Below, piece after piece: positions 50,763 through 62,719 of a stretch of DNA of 64,000 bases. A model generated the notes under the pieces. That model did no database searches. It saw only the letters and a list, made by a program, of their open reading frames with translations, and was not told the origin of the DNA. A program made the position numbers and the translations under genes. Source of the stretch: Bacteroidales bacterium (GTDB lineage: Bacteria > Bacteroidota > Bacteroidia > Bacteroidales > Marinilabiliaceae); contig DUOK01000026.1 in NCBI GenBank assembly GCA_012838865.1, positions 1 to 64,000 of the forward strand. The letters run 5' to 3'. Positions within the stretch are counted from its first letter, which is position 1. Each line of letters starts with the position of its first letter.

Positions 50763-51873
50763 ATGGTAACACCAGAGCAAATTAAAGACTTAAGTGTTCG
50801 CGAAGCGGCGCTGAGGAGGTATCTTTGACATCGATCGTAAAAAGATTGAGATAGAAGAAGAAGAATTGCGCTCCCAGGCCCCGGATTTTTGGGAAGATGC
50901 CAAAAAGGCCGAAGAGCAGATGAAAAAATTAAAAGAGCTCAAGAGCTGGGTTAATGCTTACGAGGCCATAAAAACAGCAACAGCCGATCTGCAGGTATTG
51001 TACGATTTCTTTAAAGAAGGCGAAGCGGAGGAGGCGGACGTTCAGGAAGCTTATAAGCAGGCCCTCAGGCAGACAGAAGACCTCGAGTTGCGCAATATGC
51101 TGCAGAAGGAGGAGGATAAGCTGGGCGCCCTACTCAAAATCAATGCCGGCGCCGGCGGCACCGAAAGCCAGGATTGGGCAGAAATGCTGATGCGTATGTA
51201 TGTGCGCTGGGGCGAACAAAACAAGTACAAAGTCTCGGTAAATCACATACTGGAAGGTGAAGAAGCGGGTATAAAAACCGTCACGCTGCAATTCGAGGGC
51301 GACTACGCCTACGGCTACCTGAAAGGCGAAAACGGCGTACACCGCCTGGTGCGCCTCTCCCCCTTCAACTCGGCCAACAAACGCATGACCTCCTTCACCT
51401 CCGTCTATGTAATTCCCCTCATCGACGACTCCATCGAAGTCGACATCAATCCCGCCGACATCACCTGGGAAACCTTCCGCTCGAGCGGCGCAGGAGGCCA
51501 GAATGTAAACAAAGTGGAAACCGGAGTACGTTTGCGTCACGCCCCAACGGGCATCGTGATTGAAAACACCGAATCGCGCTCGCAGGGTGGCAACAAGGAA
51601 AACGCCCTGCGCAACCTCAAGTCGCAACTCTACGAAATGGAATTGCAAAAGCGTCTGGAGGAGCAAAACAAAATTGAATCCCAGAAGAAAAAGATCGAAT
51701 GGGGCTCCCAAATCCGCTCCTACGTCCTGCAGCCCTACAAATTGGTAAAAGATGTGCGCACCGGTCACGAGACCAGCAACGTGCAGGCGGTGCTCGACGG
51801 GGAACTGGAGGGCTTTATCAAAGCCTGGTTGATGGAGTACGGCGCCAACGACGTATTTGAAAAAGAGGCCTAA
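50763..51873 (+). CDS. prfB: Peptide chain release factor 2, expressed via programmed +1 frameshift (join 50763..50825, 50827..51873)
   Basis: ATGGTAACACCAGAGCAAATT...AGGAGGTATCTTTGACATC frameshift signal with in-frame TGA at 50826; downstream [18 protein letters not shown] and [13 protein letters not shown]. Confidence 0.95.
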
Positions 51874-59501: not shown

Positions 59502-59674
59502 GAGAAAATTTTCAGGTTCACCAACAAAGCACTGCAAAATTTTGTGCAATAAAGCCTTCTCCTTTACTGAAAGCAAGCACTTTCCGTAAACAGTCGGCCA
59601 CTGTTCAAAAAGCGACCAAACAAGAAGAAGGCCCAAACAAAAACAGTCATTAATTTAAAACAATTCTAAATACG

Positions 59675-59690
59675 TTTGGTCGCGACCAAA
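59675..59690. promoter_or_regulatory. Perfect 16-bp palindrome overlapping the zur -33 TTTG
   Basis: TTTGGTCGCGACCAAA. Confidence 0.5.
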
Positions 59691-59698
59691 AAAGCAGT

Positions 59699-59706
59699 TA
59701 TTTTTG
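59699..59706 (+). promoter_or_regulatory. Putative -7 element of zur
   Basis: TATTTTTG with TTTG at 59675-59678, 20-nt spacer. Confidence 0.6.
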
Positions 59707-59723
59707 CAACATGGTTGCAAAAA
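59701..59723. promoter_or_regulatory. Candidate Zur-box spanning the start codon
   Basis: TTTTTGCAAC-ATG-GTTGCAAAAA perfect 10-bp arms. Confidence 0.6.
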
Positions 59724-60163
59724 ACGACACCGTCATCCAGTTGCTGCGCAGCAAAAGACTGAATGTTACCGACATTCGCCTGCAGTTGTTGCAGCTACTG
59801 CTGGAGCCGGGGACGGCGCTCAGCCAAAAAGAACTGGAAGAGCGCCTGAGCTCCGAAGGCCACAGTGTGGACCGGGTGACCCTCTACCGGAGCATACGCA
59901 CCCTGCTCGACAAACAGGTGATTCACCCCATAACCATTGATGCACAAACCGTTAAATACAAACTGGCCGGGGACCACAAAAAAAGTGATCATCCCCACTT
60001 CCTGTGCTCCCATTGTCAACGCATGATTTGCATGCCCCAACTGAGTCCCTCTACCGAGGATCTGCCTGAGGGCTTCACCCTGCAATCGGCGCAACTCTTA
60101 CTGGAGGGCCTCTGTCCCCACTGCTCCCTTACCACCAAACAAAAAGATTCCGAAGGCGAATAA
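59711..60163 (+). CDS. zur: Fur-family transcriptional regulator, probable Zur
   Basis: VTDIRLQLLQLLLEPGTALSQKELEERLSSEGHSVDRVTLYRSIRTL; HPHFLCSHCQRMICM; followed by zinc ABC genes. Confidence 0.85.
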   Translation: MVAKNDTVIQLLRSKRLNVTDIRLQLLQLLLEPGTALSQKELEERLSSEGHSVDRVTLYRSIRTLLDKQVIHPITIDAQTVKYKLAGDHKKSDHPHFLCSHCQRMICMPQLSPSTEDLPEGFTLQSAQLLLEGLCPHCSLTTKQKDSEGE

Positions 60164-60205: not shown

Positions 60206-61120
60206 ATGAATACAAGAAAACTTCTTTTACTGCTGCCCCTACTGTATATTTTTTCGGCCTGTGCCGAAAAAAACAGCGACCCCAACCTGGTTTCGGTCAG
60301 CATCCTGCCTCAGAAATACTTTATCGACCAACTCACCGACGAACAGCTCCGGGTCAACGTGATGGTACCCCCCGGCTCCAGTCACGCCACCTATTCGCCC
60401 ACTCCACAGCAATTCCAACAGCTGAGCGCGTCGCCCCTTTACATGGGCATCGGTCACCTGGGCTATGAAACCACCTGGATGTCGCGCCTGGAAGAGCTCA
60501 ATGCCGATATGCAAGTGATGATTTTGTCCGACCACACCAAGCTGATCGAAGGAGCCTGCGCCCACGACGAACACGCGGAGCACGAAGCTCACGGTGCCCC
60601 TGAAGCCCACCACCATGGCGTAGATCCCCACATTTGGATGTCACCAAAGGTTATGCTGGAACTGCTTCCTCACATAAAAACCAATCTCCAGGCAAATTAT
60701 CCCCACCTGGCCGACAGCATCGAAAAGAATTATCCGTCGCTCTTCGAAAAACTCAGCGACACCCACAAGCGCATGCAAGCCCTGGCCGCCTCGCTCGACC
60801 AGCGGCAGTTTTTGATTTTCCACCCGGCACTGACCTACCTGGCACGCGACTACGGCCTCACCCAAATTGCTGTGGAACAAGACGGCAAGGAACCCTCTCC
60901 GGCTTACCTGGCCCGACTTATCGACCGGGCACGTGAAGAAAACATACCGGTGATTTTCATCCAAAAGGAATACGACCTGCGCAACGCCGAAACCATCAGT
61001 CGCGAAGCAGGAATTGCCCTGGTCCAGATCAACCCCATGCGCTACGACTGGGTGGCTGCCATGCACGAACTGATGGCTCAGATAGAGCAACATCTCAAAA
61101 GCACAGCCACACAACCATGA
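60206..61120 (+). CDS. znuA: Zinc ABC transporter substrate-binding protein
   Basis: Lipobox FSACAEK; HDEHAEHEAHGAPEAHHHGVDPHIWMSPK His-rich loop. Confidence 0.9.
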   Translation: MNTRKLLLLLPLLYIFSACAEKNSDPNLVSVSILPQKYFIDQLTDEQLRVNVMVPPGSSHATYSPTPQQFQQLSASPLYMGIGHLGYETTWMSRLEELNADMQVMILSDHTKLIEGACAHDEHAEHEAHGAPEAHHHGVDPHIWMSPKVMLELLPHIKTNLQANYPHLADSIEKNYPSLFEKLSDTHKRMQALAASLDQRQFLIFHPALTYLARDYGLTQIAVEQDGKEPSPAYLARLIDRAREENIPVIFIQKEYDLRNAETISREAGIALVQINPMRYDWVAAMHELMAQIEQHLKSTATQP

Positions 61121-61882: not shown

Positions 61883-62719
61883 ATGCCACAGTTTTTCGAC
61901 CTCTTTGCCTACAGCTTTTTTCAGAATGCCTTTGCGGCATCCATCCTCATCAGTCTGCTGTCGGCCCTCATCGGCACCTATATTGTAGCCCGAAAAAACG
62001 TCTTCATCAGCGGAGGCATTACCCACGCCTCTTTTGGTGGCATCGGCCTTGCCTATTACCTGGGTCTGAACCCCTTTTTAGGTGCAGCGGTATTTGCCGT
62101 ACTGACCGGCACCAGCATTGAGTGGATTACCAATAAGGGCAAAATGCGCGAAGACAGTGCCATTGCCATCCTCTGGTCGCTGGGCATGGCCCTGGGCATC
62201 ATTTTCGTTTTCCTGACCCCCGGCTATGCACCCAATTTAATGAGCTTCCTGTTCGGCAGCATTTTGTCGGTGGGGCGCAGCGACGTGCTGCTTATTGGGG
62301 GACTCACCTTGCTGACTGCGCTTTTCTTTTTACTGGCTTACCGCCCCATCATTTACACAGCCTTCGACCCGGAATTTTCGAGCATCAATGGCATCAAAGT
62401 GGCCTTTTATCGCTACAGCATGGCCGTTCTGGTGGCCCTGGCCATCGTGGTCAGCATTCGTGCCATGGGCATCATACTGGTACTGAGCCTTTTTACCATC
62501 CCTCAGACCACCGCCCTGCTCTACACCCACTCCTTTAAAAGAATTGTTGCTTTGGCCGCAATCTTTGCCCTGAGTGGCGCCCTGATTGGTCTCTACGTAG
62601 CCTACGCCATGAACATCCCCTCCGGGGCAGCCATCATTTTTGTACTGACGCTCCAATACCTGCTGTTGAAAGGCATCGACCTCTTGCACCGCCAACGCCG
62701 GCGCAACACGGCAGACTAA
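61883..62719 (+). CDS. znuB: Zinc ABC transporter permease
   Basis: NVFISGGITHASFGGIGLAYYLG; ABC-3 family TM protein. Confidence 0.92.
   Translation: MPQFFDLFAYSFFQNAFAASILISLLSALIGTYIVARKNVFISGGITHASFGGIGLAYYLGLNPFLGAAVFAVLTGTSIEWITNKGKMREDSAIAILWSLGMALGIIFVFLTPGYAPNLMSFLFGSILSVGRSDVLLIGGLTLLTALFFLLAYRPIIYTAFDPEFSSINGIKVAFYRYSMAVLVALAIVVSIRAMGIILVLSLFTIPQTTALLYTHSFKRIVALAAIFALSGALIGLYVAYAMNIPSGAAIIFVLTLQYLLLKGIDLLHRQRRRNTAD

Follow-up and report, generated by a model that had tools for sequence, protein, structure and literature searches.

Zur autoregulates where zur itself belongs to an operon (PMC6103462), and the autoregulated zur-znu operons reviewed there resemble the present locus in combining a Fur-family repressor, a palindromic box on the core promoter, and zur together with znuABC. 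They differ from it in the box, which is TTGCAACNNNGTTGCAA here, and in that the centre of the operator coincides here with the predicted +1 and the start codon. No Bacteroidota box is named in the Zur reviews consulted (PMC6103462 and another); most subscription papers and RegPrecise lay outside this search and an earlier description of the motif is possible. Repressors translated from an mRNA that starts at their own AUG represent another parallel, as described for CvkR and cited likewise for lambda cI and Tn1721 tetR in the sections of the CvkR report considered here (PMC9938897). In contrast to zur, these are mobile-element or phage genes of other regulator families, and those sections do not describe a start codon centred in the gene's own operator. 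The locus agrees with the promoters of the Bacteroidota primary sigma factor (TTTG / TANNTTTG) in its -7 element and in the spacing from there to the predicted +1; unlike in these standard promoters, the TTTG of the -7 element doubles here as the outer portion of a repressor half-site, and relatives with twin boxes put the GTTG of a second box at -33. In B. thetaiotaomicron, 3.7% of the leaders are under 10 nt, and the leaderless fraction in F. psychrophilum amounts to 5.5%. Bacteroidota do not rely on Shine-Dalgarno signals for initiation. A Shine-Dalgarno-like sequence is nevertheless present in the window (i.e., the whole stretch of 64,000 nucleotides analyzed here) within a prfB-like gene (50763-51873), where it belongs to an apparent programmed frameshift site (AGGAGG TAT CTT TGA C, stop at 50826-50828).

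For the zur locus of this window, we favor, at a probability of roughly 0.78, a Zn-Zur operator that lies across the -7 element, the +1, and the start codon, in a zinc-uptake operon that represses itself and is transcribed without a leader. All coordinates given in the original prediction, namely TTTG followed after 20 nt by TATTTTTG, the perfect repeat centred on the ATG, the Fur-family gene, and the znu run behind it, were exact. The features are as follows:

59654-59670, plus strand: Fur-box-like element TTTAAAACAATTCTAAA, -57 to -41 from the ATG, in 7/9 closest orthologues
59671-59678, plus strand: alternative -7-like site TACGTTTG (TACTTTTG in the relative G004), which would give a 28-nt leader
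59675-59678, plus strand: -33-like TTTG, at the place where relatives with twin boxes have the GTTG of their upstream Zur box
59675-59690, no strand: second perfect palindrome TTTGGTCGCGACCAAA, 16 bp, overlapping the -33 TTTG
59699-59706, plus strand: -7 element TATTTTTG (consensus TAHHTTTG), from sequence and orthologues
59701-59723, no strand: predicted Zur operator, 10-3-10 inverted repeat with perfect 10-bp arms (left, TTTTTGCAAC, 59701-59710; right, GTTGCAAAAA, 59714-59723) and a 3-nt centre; core TGCAACNNNGTTGCA at 59705-59719
59711-59713, plus strand: ATG start codon, operator centre and predicted +1 (59711)
59711-60163, plus strand: zur, Fur-family regulator, 150 aa
60206-61120, plus strand: znuA, zinc-type ABC solute-binding protein with His-rich loop
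61117-61860, plus strand: znuC, ABC ATPase
61883-62719, plus strand: znuB, ABC-3 family permease

The spacer between TTTG and TATTTTTG occupies 59679-59698, the ribosomal-protein gene rplU lies upstream of zur on the opposite strand, and the reading frame of zur offers no start codon 5' of its ATG. The source genome (G000) is a draft of 331 contigs that is 97% complete. The regulator matches the Pfam family FUR (3.1e-11, 43.9 bits, cut-off 23.1) and is 95% identical to Zur of Geofilum rhodophaeum HF401. Among the NCBIfam Fur-family models none reaches its curated cut-off; for the PRK11639 Zur model NF008646 the score is 26 bits and the cut-off, a naming rule and not a biological definition, is 167. 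Since the regulator stays below every curated NCBIfam cut-off, the name zur rests on context; the low scores restrict the name, not the mechanism. The gene is linked to zinc uptake genes, with znuA, znuC, and znuB directly following zur, as is likewise the case in L129 and L130. An alignment of 10 orthologues shows no variation in either CxxC pair of the structural zinc site (C99/C102 and C135/C138). Cys107 (C-M/L-P; Cys107-Met-Pro at 60029-60037) is also invariant in the aligned Zur proteins and is possibly a ligand of the sensing site. Within znuA, the lipoprotein signal region carries a perfect 10-4-10 inverted repeat (TTTTTTCGGCCTGTGCCGAAAAAA, 60249-60272) that is kept in G004, was not seen in L007-L013, and is probably a coding coincidence.

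For comparison, 32 homologous loci were oriented. In 17 of them (group A, L005-L021; from 7 genera, with proteins as little as 45% identical), nine of which form the window's own clade (L005-L013), the box centre is the start codon without exception, although the orthologues are related and their counts are not independent events. The box TGCAACATGGTTGCA is exact in 14/17, while L014 and L016 each deviate from it at a single position. L021, whose copy is degenerate, retains TACTTTTG as its -7 element as well as an upstream box without mismatches. Because an in-frame stop lies almost directly upstream in seven of these loci (open frame from -9), leaving no alternative start in them, and because another in-frame ATG within 14 codons downstream occurs in L019 only, the central ATG is the start. 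The second codon is GTT for valine in 15/15 and the third GCA for alanine in 16/16 sequences, compared with frequencies of 0.38 and 0.39 elsewhere in the same genes; the naive p values (~5e-7 for GTT, ~2e-7 for GCA) are too optimistic for related sequences. As the wobble positions are frozen, the constraint on codons 2 and 3 acts on the DNA and not on Met-Val-Ala alone. The promoter consensus TAHHTTTG of the primary sigma factor occupies -12 to -5 in the window and in 12/17 group A orthologues, with near-matches in the same place in the remainder, and its terminal TTTG also forms the outermost part of the left half-site. A gap of 4-5 nt separates the -7 element from the start in F. johnsoniae, where G occupies -5 (PMC6847099), and this published gap together with the conserved -7 position would place +1 on 59711, the A of the ATG. 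The view that Zur covers -7, +1, and start codon and that the mRNA is leaderless or nearly so is thus favored by comparative evidence: the relative positions of operator, -7 element, and start codon are retained across genera whose proteins share as little as 45% identity, the wobble positions of codons 2 and 3 are frozen, and the same box recurs at other zinc genes.

A second set of eight loci (group B: L022, L023, L024, L026, L028, L031, L109, L110) has the -7 element fused to the box in the same register (imperfect -7 in L031) with AAA as the centre, while the ATG follows 12-15 nt past the predicted transcription start. A further box is located 39 bp upstream in L014-L021 and in group B (38 bp in L109; degenerate in L028) and is absent from the window's clade. 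Within group B, this upstream box is exact in 7/8 and its spacing is exactly 39 bp in six. The GTTG of the upstream box coincides with position -33, separated by 20 nt from the -7 element. Between them, the two boxes thus seem to provide the -33 and the -7 element alike, and this would account for their constant distance. The central triplet of the upstream box varies freely (ATG, CAT, ACT, ACG, ACA, GAA), showing that ATG is not a requirement for binding. In both groups, transcription is predicted to start at the first base of the central triplet. This suggests a +1-at-operator-centre register common to the family, the triplet being ATG in group A and AAA in group B. On the tree, ATG-in-box requires a minimum of two changes and a single origin is compatible; either form may be older. 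The pattern TTGCAACATGGTTGCA was found among 396 genomes of the phylum only in G000 and two others, one match lying within a coding frame and the other ~14 nt 5' of a Zur-like gene with the ATG out of frame. In consequence, the ATG-centred form seems limited to one family.

Elsewhere in the relatives, the box often adjoins further Zur-type genes with COG0523 GTPases, znuA, and pairs of a His-rich protein and a TonB receptor, and in the more distant genome G290 it stands ~14 nt 5' of a Zur-like gene that has MerC-like and FolE-like neighbours (COG0523, MerC, and FolE being named by eye from sequence). Genes of these kinds are established parts of zinc homeostasis. A few sites inside unrelated coding sequences are probably chance. 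G000 itself yielded one exact site only; the weaker sites considered in this genome (L002, L003, L039, L040) as additional Zur targets do not precede recognizable zinc genes, and the G000 regulon may comprise the zur-znu operon alone. Gene pairs for a TonB receptor together with a small His-rich protein follow twin boxes in L100 (2546-2601, 41 bp apart) and L098 (2505-2547, 28 bp) and are likely to serve outer-membrane zinc uptake. A separate Fur-like subfamily of ~137 aa (L042, L105, L106, L107, and also L044 and L104) has the TGCAACNNNGTTGCA box after the stop codon and preceding membrane/efflux-type genes, a placement opposite to that in zur.

Upstream of the operator, the proposed -33 TTTG is present at its predicted position and missing from most close relatives: within the clade it is restricted to the two Geofilum genomes, being found in the window and G004 and not conserved in L007 and L010-L013. 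A weak -33 element is also known from F. johnsoniae (PMC6847099). The TTTG lies within the second palindrome and within a TANNTTTG match, both overlooked in the original prediction. The palindrome TTTGGTCGCGACCAAA is private to G000, with one mismatch in G004. The candidate site of a second regulator, GGTCGCGACC, was rejected, being exact once in G000 and imperfect in G004, with sites of up to 2 mismatches no commoner than in the reversed control and no sign of a regulon. The Fur-box-like element, likewise overlooked, differs by 2 mismatches from TTTAGAATNATTCTAAA; seven of the nine clade members have 1-2 mismatches to this pattern at -57/-56, whereas among the remaining 25 loci, the orthologues from which the background of the element was judged, even the closest sequences have 3-7. 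In G004, exact or 1-mismatch TTTAGAATNATTCTAAA sites precede genes for a TonB receptor, a flavodoxin, a solute-binding protein, and NorB, and these targets point to Fur. The -57 element is likely a Fur box and is graded no higher because a variant also precedes a His-rich protein and TonB receptor pair that bears a Zur box in relatives. An iron input on the zinc operon is accordingly possible. The fur gene was not found in the draft G000, probably due to an assembly gap.

An inverted repeat across a start codon might arise by chance, and perfect 10-bp inverted repeats are not rare in the window, where we counted eight of the same type (some resembling terminators) versus 0.6 expected; the case consequently rests on conservation in relatives and not on the repeat alone. 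Given that 17 orthologues share the repeat, that its wobble positions are frozen in them, and that TGCAACNNNGTTGCA has a single exact site in the whole of G000, we regard coincidence as hardly credible. Congruently, TTGCAACNNNGTTGCAA matches the window exactly once, with six further sites within 3 mismatches all having exactly 3, and TGCAACNNNGTTGCA occurs 0-5 times per genome among 60 relatives, with three sites in total for the reversed control. The 42 TAHHTTTG sites of the window (20 on the plus and 22 on the minus strand) include only one, that of zur, with an ATG exactly 4 nt on. It is also improbable that the regulator senses another metal (Mn or Fe) or several and that the operon is not for zinc. 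The scatter of its scores across PerR, Fur, Irr, and Zur models, the overlap of the ZnuA and MntC families, and the element at -57 would fit such a role, but ZnuA carries the His-rich loop HDEHAEHEAHGAPEAHHHG, the same box stands ahead of COG0523 GTPases and His-rich/TonB receptor pairs, and a separate true Fur gene, 86-89% conserved, exists in 8/8 relatives tested. A His-rich loop of this kind is a known mark of zinc-type solute-binding proteins.

The principal rival leaves the Zur operator real and lets the main transcript start from TACGTTTG with its ~28-nt leader, making TATTTTTG at the ATG a secondary or inactive promoter. Typical median leaders in the phylum (24-32 nt) and a TANNTTTG match that both Geofilum genomes have at -40, forming a perfect TAHHTTTG in G004, speak for this possibility, and the rarity of leaderless mRNAs in the phylum counts against the favored reading. 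We nonetheless consider it unlikely, as the site is absent from L007-L013, whereas the element at -12 to -5 is conserved, and as TACGTTTG carries in the window a G that is disfavored (PMC6847099). Moreover, a leadered mRNA would put the AUG into the 3-nt loop of a predicted stem of about -8.5 kcal/mol, and the predicted mean access of the start region drops from 0.64 to 0.28 with the leader (0.58 leaderless versus 0.32 with a 28-nt leader for group A; 0.62 versus 0.53 for group B). The same hairpin, stable in prediction with the AUG in its loop if the repeat is wholly transcribed, could alternatively mean that the repeat works in RNA by hiding or presenting the AUG and not as a DNA operator. 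This appears very improbable, as the repeat has a second copy 5' of the -7 element and occurs at further zinc genes, the upstream copy conserves both arms and not the centre, and with +1 at the AUG only half of the repeat would be in the RNA. A role in RNA, another metal, and chance are all less likely than the upstream promoter.

Under the favored reading, a leaderless operon repressed by its own Zn-Zur, the zinc-loaded Zur dimer would sit on TTTTTGCAACATGGTTGCAAAAA when zinc is plentiful, so that -7 element, +1, and start codon would all be covered. RNA polymerase would be blocked from the promoter and zur-znuA-znuC-znuB would be off. On zinc scarcity, Zur would leave, the A of the ATG in the middle of the operator would be the first base transcribed, and translation of the resulting leaderless mRNA would begin at its 5'-terminal AUG. 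A tentative and rather doubtful extension of this model assigns four jobs to the 23-bp palindrome (repressor site, half of the -7 element, +1, and start codon) and adds a hairpin gate as well as start-codon capture. Transcripts started upstream would fold their AUG into the hairpin loop and be poorly translated, so that Zur would be made from zinc-controlled leaderless transcripts only; the central AAA of an older operator would have been turned into an in-frame ATG.

In this compact and rare arrangement, which at least 17 relatives retain, the probable Zur operator lies where zur appears to have both its transcription start and its translation start. The findings provide a concrete candidate Zur box for a part of the Bacteroidota that the Zur reviews leave uncovered, and they present operator, core promoter, predicted transcription start, and start codon as one object under selection. 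This makes the locus a good place for testing leaderless translation in a phylum without reliance on Shine-Dalgarno sequences, and it indicates that a regulatory site can set the first residues of a protein (Met-Val-Ala).
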